A stretch of DNA of 64,000 nt from Marinobacter iranensis (GTDB taxonomy: Bacteria; Pseudomonadota; Gammaproteobacteria; Pseudomonadales; Oleiphilaceae): contig NZ_JANCMW010000002.1 in the NCBI RefSeq assembly GCF_029207565.1, positions 248,001 through 312,000 of the forward strand, in the 5' to 3' direction. Of this stretch, positions 56,981 through 62,923 are shown piece by piece. The translations under genes were made by a program, and so were the position numbers. The notes beneath the pieces were generated by a model. It was not told where the DNA came from. It saw nothing but the letters and a program-made list of their open reading frames with translations, and did no database searches. Each line of letters opens with the position of its first letter. Positions within the stretch are counted from its first letter, which is position 1.

Positions 56981-58213
56981 ATGAGCGAGCACAAGTTCGA
57001 TTCGAATAAAGGCTATGTCGCACTCCTGGGCTGGAGTCTGAGCGCGGTCGAGGCCGCGGACAAGTTTGACCGCCGCTACGTGGTGGTCGCCCCTGATTGG
57101 GCTGAGGCCTACTGCAAGGAACATGACATTCCCTATGTTCCCTGGAACTTCGAACGCCTGAATGACCGCTCTGTTGAAATTGCGCAGACGCTCAACGAAA
57201 TGGGCGTGAATGTGGCGATCCCGCTTTTCGAGGAAACGGTCGAGTGGGCCGGTGCCATCAACTCGGTGCTGATGGACCAACCGAAGCTGTTTGGTCAATC
57301 CATGCTGTTGCGGGACAAGGCCTTGATGAAACGTCGCGCCCAGTTGGGCGGTATCCGCGTCGGTATCTTCGAGGAGGCCCACGACCGGGAAGACGTCATC
57401 CGCTTCCTCAAGCGCGTCAACCAGACGCTGCTGAAGCTCGACGGTGACCCCAACGACCCGATCCACCTGAAGGCCTTCGACAAGGCCGGCTGTCTTGGAC
57501 ACCGGGTTATCCGCACCCCGGACGAAGTCGATACCATCCCCGACGAAGAGTTTCCGGTGCTGATGGAGTCCCACCTGGACGGTTGGGAATTCGCGGTTGA
57601 AGCCTGGATTCACAACGGCAAGGTGGCGTTCCTGAACATCTCGGAGTACGTCACTCTGGGCTATTCCGTATTCGTGCCGGCTACACCGGACCTGGAACGG
57701 TACCGGGCGCAGATTACCGGTGAGATCGAGAAACTGATCAAGACATTCGATATCGAGTTCGGGTTTATCCACCCCGAGTACTTCGTCACCAGCGACAGCA
57801 CCATGTACTTCGGTGAAGTGGCCTATCGGCCGCCGGGCTTCAAGGTGTTCGAGCTGCTTGAGCGTGCCTACGGCTTCAACGCCTATCAGGCACTGATCAT
57901 GACGTTCGACCCGAAAACCACCGACGAAGAGGTTAAGGCCTTCTTCCCGAAAGAGGTGGTGGATGCCAAGGGCTATGCCGGTTGTTTCGGTGTCTATCCG
58001 CGCCGCCGGGTGGTCAGCAAGCTGGAAATGCCGGAGGAGACCGAGAATCACGATTACTTCGAGTCTCACGAACTGACGCCGCCGCTGGAGGAAACAGTCA
58101 CCAAGCGTACCGCGTTTGGCACGCACTGGGGCCTGATTTACTTCTTCGGTGAAGACCCTTATGTGATGAGAGATTTGCTGAAACATCAGGAAGAACTGGA
58201 TTTCTATGTATAA
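56981..58213 (+). CDS. ATP-grasp domain protein, function unknown
   Basis: 410 residues, soluble. N-terminal pre-ATP-grasp domain (GYVALLGWSLSAVEAADKFD), central and C-terminal ATP-grasp: VLMESHLDGWEFAVEAWIHN, FGFIHPEYFVTSD and YFGEVAYRPPGFKVFELLE. This resembles carboxylate-amine ligases of the carnosine synthase / BL00235 group. The usual metal-binding ExN is replaced by EVA in GEVAYRPPG. Likely joins a carboxylate to an amine using ATP. First of three closely spaced co-directional genes with a 674-residue unknown and an AlsS-like enzyme. An AAAGGAG site precedes the ATG. Confidence 0.8.
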   Translation: MSEHKFDSNKGYVALLGWSLSAVEAADKFDRRYVVVAPDWAEAYCKEHDIPYVPWNFERLNDRSVEIAQTLNEMGVNVAIPLFEETVEWAGAINSVLMDQPKLFGQSMLLRDKALMKRRAQLGGIRVGIFEEAHDREDVIRFLKRVNQTLLKLDGDPNDPIHLKAFDKAGCLGHRVIRTPDEVDTIPDEEFPVLMESHLDGWEFAVEAWIHNGKVAFLNISEYVTLGYSVFVPATPDLERYRAQITGEIEKLIKTFDIEFGFIHPEYFVTSDSTMYFGEVAYRPPGFKVFELLERAYGFNAYQALIMTFDPKTTDEEVKAFFPKEVVDAKGYAGCFGVYPRRRVVSKLEMPEETENHDYFESHELTPPLEETVTKRTAFGTHWGLIYFFGEDPYVMRDLLKHQEELDFYV

Positions 58214-58228
58214 TTCCGGAAGGAATTA
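58211..58228. repeat. Short inverted repeat after ATP-grasp gene
   Basis: TAATTCC and GGAATTA (7-bp arms, 4-base loop) begin on the ATP-grasp stop codon. No T-run, so probably not a terminator; it may modulate expression of the next gene. Confidence 0.6.
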
Positions 58229-58266
58229 ACAACAACGGGTCTGGTCCAGACCCTGAGGAAGACAGT

Positions 58267-60291
58267 TTGAGCAACTCCGACGCTGGAAACCCGGCACCTG
58301 TCGTCAATTTCGATAAGCTGGTACAGCGACTGGATGATGCCATAAAGGCTCTTGATGAGAGTCGCGCCTTTGCCAAACCCGGCAAGTTGCCCCGGTTGTT
58401 CGATATCGTTCGCCGGGTGCTGCTCCAGCCGGGGGGCTGCTCTGCGGTTCAGGAACGCGCTGAATGGCTTGAAAATGCCGGTGTGTTCCTCGGAACCGAC
58501 TGGGCAGACCCCTCCATCCTTTTACCGTCACTGACCACCTTCTCCCTGCAAAGCCCACACACCGATACCGTGATTATCGAAGCGCTCAGCGAACTGCGTT
58601 TGCTGGCCGTTGCCCACGGTGACTACCTGCACGAATCGGTGTCGGCGGAACAGGCGCACCATTACCTGACCCAGGTATTGGCGATCAATCTGAACATGCT
58701 GTTCGGCGAATCCGGAGAAGCGGAGCGTGAACAGGGCAAGCTGGCGTTGATCAGCCGTGCGGTGGTGCAGCATATTGCCGGACGAATCGGCTACGAGCAT
58801 GTGATTGACCAGCTCATTGACGAAATCTGGCGGATTCTGCAGCAACGGCCGATCCAGGTGACCAGTGTGCGCCAGATGATCACCCAGATTGCCCTGTGCC
58901 GGGTTGACCCGAGTGTGGATATGGGCGGTGCCGGGCAGGGTGCGGAACGCCTGATTTCAAGCCTTTACGGGCCGACCCAGGCCTGTCGCGAAGACCCTGG
59001 CATTCCGGTTTATGAAGAACGGCTGCAGTCCATGGATTCGGTGGCCCTGCAAAGTGAGGCCACCGGCTTTGCCCGCTCCATGCACGATACCGGCCTGGTG
59101 TCGCCCTATCACGCCTCGTTTGTGCGTTACATCCTGGAAAAGCAGGATTCCATGCTGACCGAGGCACTGGGCCTTTCCAGCACGGGCCGCGACTGCCTGT
59201 TGTGCTACAAGGACCTGGTTCACGAGCTGGTCACCGAAGGCGTATATCCGGAAACGGCACAAGGCCTCTATGGCCTGTCACTGCTGCTGGAGCGGGGTAT
59301 TCTTTACCAACCACCGGTGGCACCAGCGCTCTGGCGGCAGGCGCGTTTATCCATCTGTCCCGAGGCGCGCGAGCGAATCCAACTGGCCTACGGCTACCAA
59401 CCCCAACCCAAGGCCTGGCTGACTCAGGGCGTGCTGAATATGCTGGGCCAGCCTCTTGGTGTGGGGCAGGGCAATAACCCCACCTGCCAGTCGGCGCGTG
59501 CGCTGTCAATGTGGGCCTACAACGACCCGGACTACTTGTTACAGATGGTGGCCTGGGCCGCGCGGGACAACGAGATCATCATGCATTTCGAAGGCCAGCC
59601 GGTTTCCTCCGCCGCCAGCCAGGGCGGTGTTGCCTCTGAAGTGACGCTGGATCTGGACCCGGTGTCGCTGGTTGTGGTGCCGCATCTGGACAGGATCTAC
59701 GCGGAAATGGGCCGGCTGTGTGTTGGCAGGCAGGGCGATCCCCACCAATGGGTGAACCCGGAGTTCCACGGCTGGTCGGCCGGCCGTGGATTCCGCATCA
59801 ATGTGGATGTGGCCACCGGCCAACTGGATGACCTGGAAAACTTCCTGCGGCACTTCTACGCCAGTTACCATCCCTATTACAACGGCAACCAGCCGTTGAT
59901 CCACCCGCAGCCTGCGGGCGTAGCGGTTACCGACAGCGCTGCAAGGTTTATCGGCTGGCATGCCATCACTATACTCCGGGTAACGCTGGACCCGGACGAC
60001 GTTATGCGGGTGTATTTCTTCAACCCCAATAACGACAGTGGCCAGAACTGGGGCGACGAAGTGGTGGTCAGCACAGCCAGGAAGGGTGAACGGTTTGGTG
60101 AGGCGTCACTACCCTTTGAACAGTTTGCCTCGCGGCTGTACATTTTCCACTTCGACCCCCTTGAGCGGGGCGAGCCTGCGGAAGTGGGTGAGGAGGAACT
60201 GGAACGGGTTATCAGCCGTGTTCACCGTAGTTGGGGCAGGGACAGGCTGCCTGCCGATTCATTGCAGGCGGAACCCCCGCGGGACGGATAA
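58267..60291 (+). CDS. Unknown protein with papain-like Gln-Cys-His-Asn pattern
   Basis: 674 residues from a TTG at 58267 (GAGGAA 6 bases upstream). I do not recognise the family. Residues 1-340 look largely helical and have no known motif. The C-terminal half holds a pattern like papain: Gln401 six residues before Cys407 (GQGNNPTCQSARALSMW), His565 in GWHAITIL, and Asn586 in YFFNPNNDSGQNWGDE. Papain has Gln19, Cys25, His159 and Asn175 with the same Gln-Cys spacing and a similar HAV...YI..N layout. A cysteine peptidase, amidase or acyltransferase is inferred. No signal peptide. Lies between the ATP-grasp and AlsS-like genes. Confidence 0.7.
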   Translation: MSNSDAGNPAPVVNFDKLVQRLDDAIKALDESRAFAKPGKLPRLFDIVRRVLLQPGGCSAVQERAEWLENAGVFLGTDWADPSILLPSLTTFSLQSPHTDTVIIEALSELRLLAVAHGDYLHESVSAEQAHHYLTQVLAINLNMLFGESGEAEREQGKLALISRAVVQHIAGRIGYEHVIDQLIDEIWRILQQRPIQVTSVRQMITQIALCRVDPSVDMGGAGQGAERLISSLYGPTQACREDPGIPVYEERLQSMDSVALQSEATGFARSMHDTGLVSPYHASFVRYILEKQDSMLTEALGLSSTGRDCLLCYKDLVHELVTEGVYPETAQGLYGLSLLLERGILYQPPVAPALWRQARLSICPEARERIQLAYGYQPQPKAWLTQGVLNMLGQPLGVGQGNNPTCQSARALSMWAYNDPDYLLQMVAWAARDNEIIMHFEGQPVSSAASQGGVASEVTLDLDPVSLVVVPHLDRIYAEMGRLCVGRQGDPHQWVNPEFHGWSAGRGFRINVDVATGQLDDLENFLRHFYASYHPYYNGNQPLIHPQPAGVAVTDSAARFIGWHAITILRVTLDPDDVMRVYFFNPNNDSGQNWGDEVVVSTARKGERFGEASLPFEQFASRLYIFHFDPLERGEPAEVGEEELERVISRVHRSWGRDRLPADSLQAEPPRDG

Positions 60292-60321
60292 TTAGCCAGC
60301 CAAGCCAGAACAGGAGAGAGG

Positions 60322-61992
60322 ATGACCGCAGAGGCCAGTAATCGCCGAAATGGTGCCGAATTGTTTGTTCGTGCCCTGGAAAACGAAGGAGTTCGCTACA
60401 TCTTCGCGGTACCGGGTGAAGAAAACCTGGACCTTCTGGAGGCCTTGCGTGAATCCAGCATTGAGCTGATTCTCAACCGCCACGAACAGGCGGCGGGCTT
60501 TATGGCCGCCACTTACGGGCGCCTGACTGGCCGGGTGGGCGTTTGCCTGTCTACCCTCGGCCCTGGTGCCACCAATCTGGTAACGGCCGCGGCCTACGCC
60601 CAGCTTGGCGCCATGCCCATGATGATGATCTCGGGGCAGAAACCCATCAAGTCATCAAAACAGGGCCTGTTCCAGATCCTGGACGTGGTGGATCTGATGC
60701 GCCCGCTTACCAAGTACACCCGCCAGATCAGCAATGCCAACACCATCCCCGCCAAATTGCGGGAGGCGTTCCGGCTCGCAGCGGAGGAACGCCCCGGTGC
60801 GGTCCACCTGGAATTGCCGGAGGATATAGCCTCGGAAGTGGCCGAGGCCGACACCCACATTTTCCAGCCCAGTGACGCCCGCCGACCCACCGCCAGCGCC
60901 AAGAGCCTGGACACCGCCTGCGACATGATCAGCAAGGCCAGGCATCCGCTGATCATGATTGGCGCCGGCGCCAACCGGAAACGGGTATCCCAGGCCCTGA
61001 TCCATCTGGTGAATTCGACCGGCATTCCCTTCTTCACCACCCAGATGGGCAAGGGGGTGGTGGACGAGCGCCATCCCCGCTACCTGGGCAACGCCGCCCT
61101 CTCTACCGGCGACTTCGTACACTGCGCCATTGACCATGCCGACCTGGTGATTAACGTAGGACATGATGTGGTCGAGAAGCCCCCGTTCTTCATGAAGCCC
61201 GGGGGCAAGCAGGTTATCCATGTAAACTTCAGCGCCGCGGATGTGGACCCGGTCTACTTCCCGCAACATGAAGTGGTGGGGGATATCGCCAACAGCGTGG
61301 AATATCTGGCTGAACGCTGTGGCCAGTGCTCTACCCACGACTTCAGCCGGTTTATGGAAGTGAAAGCCTCGGTGGACAGCCATCTGGCCGAGAGAATCGA
61401 TGACGGCCGCTTCCCGGTGATTCCCCAGCGCATTGTCCACGACGTGCGTCAGGTCATGCCGGAGGACGGCATCATCGCCCTCGACAACGGCATGTACAAA
61501 CTCTGGTTCGCCCGCAACTACCCGGCTTACGACAACAACACCGTGCTGCTGGACAACGCCCTGGCGTCCATGGGCGCCGGCCTGCCCAGTGCCATGATGG
61601 CGGCCATGCTGTACCCGCACCTGAAGGTAGTGGCCGTGTGCGGCGACGGTGGCTTCATGATGAACAGCCAGGAGTTGGAAACCGCCGTACGGCTGAAGCT
61701 CAACCTGGTGATACTGATCATCAACGACAACGCCTACGGCATGATCAAATGGAAGCAGGCCCAGGAAGGCTTCGAGAACTTCGGGCTTGATTACAACAAC
61801 CCGGACTTCGTGAAATACGCTGATGCCTATGGCGCCACCGGCCACCGAATCAGCCGCACCGAAGACCTGCGGCCCACACTGAAGAGCGCACTGACCGCCG
61901 GCGGCGTACACCTGATCGAGGTGCCCGTGGACTACAGCGAAAACCGCCGTGTGTTTGATGAAGAATTGGTAAAACTGACCTGCAACCTGTAA
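60322..61992 (+). CDS. Acetolactate synthase-like thiamine diphosphate enzyme
   Basis: 556 residues; AGGAGAGAGG just before the ATG. Catalytic Glu55 (NRHEQAAGFMA), KQGLFQILDVVDL, and the thiamine diphosphate motif from GDG (441-443) to NDN (468-470). IKWKQAQEGF resembles catabolic AlsS enzymes, which need no FAD or regulatory subunit. No small subunit is adjacent, in keeping with this. It may make acetolactate, but the operon partners (ATP-grasp, cysteine enzyme-like) suggest another 2-oxoacid condensation is possible. Confidence 0.85.
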   Translation: MTAEASNRRNGAELFVRALENEGVRYIFAVPGEENLDLLEALRESSIELILNRHEQAAGFMAATYGRLTGRVGVCLSTLGPGATNLVTAAAYAQLGAMPMMMISGQKPIKSSKQGLFQILDVVDLMRPLTKYTRQISNANTIPAKLREAFRLAAEERPGAVHLELPEDIASEVAEADTHIFQPSDARRPTASAKSLDTACDMISKARHPLIMIGAGANRKRVSQALIHLVNSTGIPFFTTQMGKGVVDERHPRYLGNAALSTGDFVHCAIDHADLVINVGHDVVEKPPFFMKPGGKQVIHVNFSAADVDPVYFPQHEVVGDIANSVEYLAERCGQCSTHDFSRFMEVKASVDSHLAERIDDGRFPVIPQRIVHDVRQVMPEDGIIALDNGMYKLWFARNYPAYDNNTVLLDNALASMGAGLPSAMMAAMLYPHLKVVAVCGDGGFMMNSQELETAVRLKLNLVILIINDNAYGMIKWKQAQEGFENFGLDYNNPDFVKYADAYGATGHRISRTEDLRPTLKSALTAGGVHLIEVPVDYSENRRVFDEELVKLTCNL

Positions 61993-62050
61993 CCGCTGTA
62001 GTATCATTCGCCCTGAATTGAAATCAGTTATGCGTTTGAGGGGTGGGTGG

Positions 62051-62923
62051 ATGAATAACTCGTGGTTCAAGCTGGCGCTATTGGCGCTGGTCGTCGTAGT
62101 GGTTGCCGGGTGCAGTAAACCGGAAACCCCTCAGGAAGTGGCGGCGGAGTTCTGGCAGGCCATGGCGGAGAACGATGCCGACGCCATCGCTGAGCTGTCG
62201 ACCCTTGCTGACCCTTCCGATTTCGACGGCTATGACCGCGAGTGGTTTGACACCGTACCGGACTTCGGGCGGGTAATTATCGATGAACGCGAAGCCACAA
62301 TCGTGACCCGTTTGCCCTCCGAAAACGGAGCCTCCGGCGAGCGCCGGGAAGTGACGACCTATCTTGTGGAACTGAATGGTGACTGGCTGGTGGACTACGA
62401 CCGCACCGGCGAGGCCATCATGAACCCCTCGCCTTTTGACGGTCTGGTGGGCGAGATCAACAAGCTGGGCGAGCGCCTGACCGCCACCTTCGGGCAGTCC
62501 TCCGACGACCTCGCCCGCGAGATGGACGCCATGGCCCGCGAGTTCGAGGCCTATTCCGAGCAGACCCGCCGCCGGGCAGAGCAGGCCATGGAAGACTACG
62601 GCCGTGCCCTGCAGGGATTTATGGAAGAACTGGAAAAATCCATTGAAGAGGCCCTGCAGAACAACCAGCAGGCCCCCGCCAGAGACCGCAGTGCCTTGCA
62701 GCAAACCGCTGCAGACCTTGACCAGAGCAGCGACAGGCTGGATGAGCCGGACTTTGATGCTTTTGCAGACAGTTCCCGCGCATTGGCGGAGGCAGGGGCC
62801 CGGTTTTCGCGGCTGAGTGACGACGCCTTCAAAGACTACCAGCGGGAATGGGACGCCAGACTGGACGAAATCAGAGAGCGCACCCGGGCGTTTTTCGAGG
62901 ACCTTGAAGGTAGTGGTCGATAA
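62051..62923 (+). CDS. Lipoprotein with NTF2-like and coiled-coil regions
   Basis: 290 residues from ATG 62051 (GAGGGG upstream). Lipobox VVVAGCSKP with Cys21. Residues about 27-130 (PQEVAAEFWQAMAENDADA, then VDYDRTGEAIM) resemble the DUF4878/NTF2-like domain found in secreted lipoproteins. The rest is charged and coiled-coil-like with many Glu, Arg and Ala. Asp follows neither +2 nor +3 position, so outer membrane sorting is expected. Function unknown. Follows the AlsS-like gene by 58 bp. Confidence 0.75.
   Translation: MNNSWFKLALLALVVVVVAGCSKPETPQEVAAEFWQAMAENDADAIAELSTLADPSDFDGYDREWFDTVPDFGRVIIDEREATIVTRLPSENGASGERREVTTYLVELNGDWLVDYDRTGEAIMNPSPFDGLVGEINKLGERLTATFGQSSDDLAREMDAMAREFEAYSEQTRRRAEQAMEDYGRALQGFMEELEKSIEEALQNNQQAPARDRSALQQTAADLDQSSDRLDEPDFDAFADSSRALAEAGARFSRLSDDAFKDYQREWDARLDEIRERTRAFFEDLEGSGR

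Follow-up and report, generated by a model that had tools for sequence, protein, structure and literature searches.

The window, a 64,000-nucleotide stretch of the Marinobacter iranensis contig NZ_JANCMW010000002.1, contains three adjacent genes on the forward strand, separated by 53 bp (ligase and 674-residue gene) and 30 bp (674-residue gene and acetolactate synthase). A first-pass annotation had described them as a co-directional run encoding an ATP-dependent ligase, a large protein with a cysteine-enzyme pattern and a thiamine diphosphate enzyme, and its coordinates and strands were reproduced. The features of the locus are:

56981..58213, + strand: probable ATP-grasp carboxylate-amine ligase, 410 aa, ATG start (PF13535, fold model)
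58237..58253, + strand: hairpin GGGTCTG-GTC-CAGACCC with a 7-bp stem (folding and the spacers of 16 relatives)
58267..60291, + strand: 674-aa protein, TTG start preceded by GAGGAAG (open reading frame without a family match)
59467..59469, + strand: codon of Gln401, putative oxyanion-hole Gln, six residues before the Cys (invariant)
59485..59487, + strand: codon of Cys407, the putative nucleophile, close to where predicted helix 405-419 starts (invariant; model)
59959..59961, + strand: codon of His565, the putative general base, immediately ahead of predicted strand 567-574 (invariant; model)
60022..60024, + strand: codon of Asn586, the putative third member, where predicted strand 580-585 ends (invariant; model)
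60322..61992, + strand: acetolactate synthase, AlsS-like, 556 aa, ATG start (NF006187 at 886 bits; PDB 13bb_A, E 2.9e-148)

The third gene product scores far above the curated NF006187 cut-off of 509 bits and is an ordinary AlsS-type enzyme, so the expected thiamine diphosphate enzyme is indeed present. The hairpin lies between the ligase gene and the 674-residue gene, just 5' of the ribosome-binding site of the latter. A stem resembling it is retained in Marinobacter spacers, with some paired substitutions among the 16 relatives, and it might set the ratio at which the ligase and the 674-residue protein are expressed. A malate:quinone oxidoreductase gene (PF06039) is located upstream of the ligase. 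Downstream of the acetolactate synthase, at 62018-62923 of the window, is a gene judged by eye to be lipoprotein-like, which gave weak coiled-coil-type matches to Pfam and NCBIfam over its C-terminal half only.

The first gene product is probably a divergent ATP-grasp enzyme that forms an amide at the expense of ATP. PF13535 matches the window protein at E 3.8e-4 and 20.5 bits, under the curated cut-off of 27 bits, and is matched at E<=1e-3 (best 1.9e-6) by all 33 members of the ligase alignment A2, which includes the window protein; the profile match is weak but consistent and bears out the ligase assignment. The model of the protein, of moderate quality (mean pLDDT 67.5), resembles most closely the L-amino acid ligase 3vot (Z 20.7, rmsd 4.6 over 339 residues), followed by 4wd3 (Z 20.1) and 3vmm (Z 18.6), and the sequence similarity of the L-amino acid ligase family to profile A2 is marginal (E 0.0074). 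Residue E266 and the segment E279-V-A-Y-R283 align with 3vot, and E266, E279 and R283 are invariant in A2; the two glutamates are putative Mg-binding residues and R283 the putative Arg of the catalytic segment. Ligase sequences are 76-90% identical across families.

For the 674-residue protein nothing in Pfam, NCBIfam, PHROGs, PADLOC or the PDB sequences matched significantly, and when 16 diverse members were compared with Pfam no family was matched by more than one of them. By these libraries the protein appears to represent a new family; membership of a known unrelated family, which the annotation had allowed for, found no match there. Papain-type enzymes carry a Gln six residues before the Cys, followed by a His and then an Asn. 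The same ordered Gln/Cys/His/Asn set of papain-like (clan CA) enzymes is present in the 674-residue protein, and Q401, C407, H565 and N586 are invariant in 44 sequences with identity down to 39% (dereplicated from 140, the window's included, after proteins of <=600 aa were dropped). The suspected cysteine-enzyme pattern is thus conserved, and the sequences support an active site of the papain type.

The AlphaFold2 model of this protein (mean pLDDT 71.4, pTM 0.52) consists of a helical, repeat-like N-terminal part (approximately residues 1-395) followed by a C-terminal domain, and is poor around the active site. A Foldseek search with the whole model, in which confidence around the active site is low, gave no PDB match at E<=0.001. 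Structure searches were dominated by the helical part, the VIA list covering mainly residues 11-183, and the best VIA match (Z 7.0) is within the noise stated for the tool. The papain fold is therefore unconfirmed, with low model quality where the catalytic residues lie and no Foldseek match at E<=0.001.

Second-type copies of the 674-residue protein, at about 50% identity, were also found (L112-L131), including one in the window's own genome (C411:66442-68349). Up to four further copies occur per genome (G005), some with stop codons and in varying contexts, and a ligase gene was seen in three of the 20 stretches that carry them (L122, L128, L131).

The genes for the ligase and the 674-residue protein make up a genuine, strictly linked pair. 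A set of 97 relatives, 61 of them members of the genus, divides into 55 genomes that have both proteins and 42 that have neither, a weak ligase hit in G063 (E 1.6e-4) being counted as absent. In a class sample of 369 genomes both were found in the same 13 and neither in the remaining 356, with ligase presence taken as at least 700 bits and all other class matches, at 70 bits or less, not counted. These 13 genomes, the window's own included, belong to ten families. A phylum sample contained the 674-residue protein in 11 of 398 genomes, and the six that were newly met all have the ligase. At least 575 named loci were matched, the nearest being from Marinobacter; of the best 80, the ligase gene is directly upstream of the 674-residue gene in 73 and was not seen in the stretches examined for the other seven, so that the gene order is far beyond chance. 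Homologues of these two genes are thus mostly adjacent rather than apart.

Eight Marinobacter genomes have no ligase gene beside the 674-residue gene; all eight have a ligase copy elsewhere, and in four of them (G003, G014, G025, G041) short ligase fragments are visible. A second ligase copy is present in 18 of the 47 genomes with an adjacent ligase. The corresponding Fisher p of 0.002 (ligase copy elsewhere, eight of eight against the rest) used 19, counting the only copy of G062, and such p-values overstate the evidence because the genomes are related but were treated as independent. In G381 the two genes are about 55 kb apart. Within the genus the pair is present in 53 of 61 genomes, and the eight without it include two incomplete ones (G032, 62%; G057, 82%). 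A plasmid search returned one record with both genes, from Halomonas sp. PA16-9, with no features listed under the match. No description of the pair was found among open-licence papers, judged by their titles and abstract openings.

At the Marinobacter/Halomonas locus the other neighbours depend on the host, among them channel genes, malate:quinone oxidoreductase and a gene judged TlyA-like by eye, and a search there for a third neighbour that is conserved found none. A third partner was found outside the window. A gene of the histone-deacetylase family adjoins the pair in five of 31 loci (L099, L201, L203, L209, L212), and tblastn over all loci collected placed it nowhere beyond those five. 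Scans gave a PF00850 match in four of the five (L099, L203, L209, L212), the L099 gene being cut by the contig end, and the L201 gene was recognised because its product is 75% identical to the L212 protein rather than by a Pfam scan of its own. For the three complete genes the PF00850 match has E 3.4e-90 to 8.8e-96, and the best PDB match is HDAC6 (E 5e-115). The putative zinc-site Asp and His residues, like the catalytic Tyr, do not vary among 12 aligned deacylases.

Genome searches with the L212 protein as query found the deacylase at >=334 bits, nearly full length, in 12 of the 13 pair genomes of the class sample and in none of the 356 others; the next match reached 272 bits and started at residue 47. 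Among the relatives it was found at >=329 bits in 42 of the 55 pair genomes and in none of the 42 others, two of which gave weaker matches (206 and 214 bits). Because the 334-bit line was drawn post hoc and the query came from a pair genome, a tree was made as a check, using 41 sequences selected from the matches: 21 of the set and 20 background deacetylases, of which 18 came from genomes without the pair and two were other deacetylases of pair genomes (G458, G296). The 21 set deacylases, all from pair genomes, form one clade (support 100/97), requiring one change on the tree, and the other deacetylases of G458 and G296 fall outside it. The first approximately 45 residues of the query are unaligned in 19 of the 20 background deacetylases. 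Within the samples searched, this clade is found only in pair genomes.

The window's genome has a deacylase copy at G000:C444:179039-180124, and most Marinobacter copies stand at a distance from the pair. A deacylase gene lies beside a second ligase copy in three of 20 deacylase loci (L251, L252, L254) and, by coordinates, also in G046. The deacylase is not essential to the set, as it is missing in 13 of the 55 relatives with the pair and in G255 of the class sample.

From the linkage, co-occurrence and conserved active-site residues observed here, we infer the following reactions, and put at about even the chance that the pair is the core of an undescribed amide-metabolism set (ligase, papain-like enzyme and zinc deacylase) that makes and recycles an amide-linked small molecule. 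Ligase, thiol amidase and zinc amidase would all act on amides, so one set for synthesis and recycling is the economical reading. The ATP-grasp enzyme would spend ATP on coupling an amine to a carboxylate, whether of an amino acid or of some other small acid. The 674-residue protein would cleave or transfer the amide through a Cys thioester at its Gln-Cys-His-Asn site, and the zinc deacylase may take an acyl group off the same or a precursor amine. The product, built and recycled by the set, could be dipeptide-like or a diamine conjugate. The site of action is probably the cytoplasm, as no export signal was seen by eye. The first-pass annotation had proposed a small amide or a modified 2-hydroxy-oxo acid; the amide half of that proposal is retained, with the balance standing level, and nothing points to a 2-hydroxy-oxo acid. 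Counting against this explanation are the unconfirmed papain fold, the pair genomes that lack the deacylase, its mostly remote position in Marinobacter, and the additional 674-residue copies, as many as four further in G005 and some with stops, for which a single simple pathway does not account.

The main rival to a small-molecule substrate is a protein. RimK-type ATP-grasp ligases attach amino acids to protein, and here the ligase could add an amino acid or acid to a protein from which the papain-like protein and the deacylase remove or edit the marks. Such a modification cycle is unlikely, although the unusual conservation of the ligase across families would fit an enzyme that holds a conserved partner, and the N-terminal part of the 674-residue protein is weakly like the Nup170, proteasome and karyopherin scaffolds. 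These scaffold matches lie within the tool's stated noise, however, no conserved neighbouring protein substrate was recognised, and the ligase fold is nearest to the small-molecule L-amino acid ligases. The deacylase gives it some further footing, as bacterial members of the HDAC superfamily include protein lysine deacylases (PMC11532494).

The amide-metabolism reading also has a narrower form, in which the product is an amide-type compatible solute that is made and recycled in salt-adapted bacteria. The 80 best-matching named loci, out of at least 575, come from Marinobacter, Halomonas and relatives, and Marinimicrobium, with an Ectothiorhodospiraceae bin, an Oleiphilaceae bin and one unplaced gammaproteobacterial bin; the hosts are mostly marine or halophilic. 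In two distant genomes, an ectoine synthase gene (NF009806) directly follows the last gene of the pair (L131:3851-4189 and L203:5042-5434), the two synthases being 49% identical. In L198 the pair stands between a BetT-type transporter gene and a mechanosensitive-channel gene. An MscS gene is located just upstream of the pair in L094, with a related gene recurring in Halomonas loci, and an L-piperidine-6-carboxylate dehydrogenase gene lies upstream of the ligase in L208. A 2005 review of compatible solutes names amide-type solutes of halophiles whose synthetic enzymes were then unexplored (PMC1224877). These salt-related neighbours are a hint only. Genes for channels and BCCT transporters are widespread, no salt-related neighbour stands in most of the contexts examined, and the eight genus genomes without the pair, including the incomplete G032 and G057, also speak against osmoprotection, which we consider rather improbable. 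In its fullest form the idea would be that salt-adapted Gammaproteobacteria have a new route for the synthesis and recycling of a polyamine conjugate or a solute of the amide type. A dedicated ATP-grasp ligase, a dedicated deacetylase clade and a papain-like family that is new and built on a helical scaffold would then act on one amide, in some genomes encoded next to ectoine synthase; we hold this, too, to be doubtful.

The acetolactate synthase could instead supply a 2-hydroxy-oxo acid for amidation by the ligase. Such a pathway would fit the 35 of the 80 named loci in which the synthase gene is directly downstream of the pair and co-directional with it, and the distribution within the genus, where the synthase is present in 41 of the 53 pair genomes and in none of the eight without the pair. 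The enzyme is 2.4 kb away in one further locus, however, and was not seen in the stretch examined of 44, a few of which, such as L095, end at a contig edge. Outside the genus it was found at E<=1e-200 in only four of 20 pair genomes, at 60-67% identity and not beside the pair, and it is missing at that threshold in the other 16. Some genomes that carry both, for example G005, G029, G048 and G056, have the synthase gene well away from the pair. The pathway is therefore very unlikely, and on its patchy linkage the synthase was rejected as a core member. Of the operon proposed at first, and of the co-occurrence of its three genes, the ligase and 674-residue gene stand as a strictly linked pair that always occurs together in the genomes tested, and the acetolactate synthase does not as a functional third member; the histone-deacetylase-family enzyme is the better third partner.

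The three-gene order is restricted to Marinobacter-type loci. One record titled Halomonas sp. SAT58 (L090) has the Marinobacter gene order, acetolactate synthase included, and the bin is perhaps mislabelled. Thirty-eight of the 41 genus synthases are at >=81% identity and three at 67%. The genus-wide tracking of the pair may reflect a lineage that lost several genes, and the synthase, as it tracks the pair within the genus, may be loosely linked to it. The enzyme is probably a passenger, a neighbour rather than a core member, and would act independently of the pair.

An ATP-grasp macrocyclase with a leader peptidase, a theme known from ribosomal-peptide (graspetide) clusters, is the least probable reading, scarcely credible here, as spacers of 53 and 30 bp are too short to hold a precursor gene, inspection of the recurring neighbours by eye showed no peptide exporter and no graspetide-maturase model is among the Pfam and NCBIfam matches.

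Nothing searched had linked the three enzymes that the proposed amide-metabolism set brings together: a ligase and a cysteine-enzyme family that are both orphans, and a histone-deacetylase clade that predicts, where present, the ligase and the 674-residue protein. Bacterial deacylases without a known substrate thereby gain a concrete metabolic partner, and the genes form a small set through which the unknown amide could be sought in genetically workable Halomonas and Marinobacter.

Among known systems, the nearest solved folds to the ligase are the L-amino acid ligases BL00235 (3vot), RizA (4wd3) and BacD/YwfE (3vmm), and 3vot shares with it the catalytic segment E..E-x-x-x-R. Unlike those enzymes, to which its sequence similarity is marginal, the ligase described here has a papain-like protein and a clade of deacylases as its partners. 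A like logic is found in glutathionylspermidine synthetase/amidase (GspSA), in which an ATP-grasp ligase, the synthetase, is paired with a papain-like amidase. GspSA is a fusion, whereas the pair is encoded by two separate genes, a CHAP match is absent (Pfam, NCBIfam), and the papain-type residues are on a helical-scaffold protein accompanied by an extra zinc deacylase. The C51 domain of GspSA is placed among papain-like enzymes in PMC10318531. The deacylase shares PF00850, the putative zinc site and the catalytic Tyr with HdaH, dimethoate hydrolase and the HDAC6 and HDAC10 domains, but differs from the bacterial class II-type zinc deacylases in forming its own clade (100/97), tied to pair genomes in the samples. 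The third gene is like catabolic AlsS and PRK08322 (NF006187) and is unusual solely in its neighbours.
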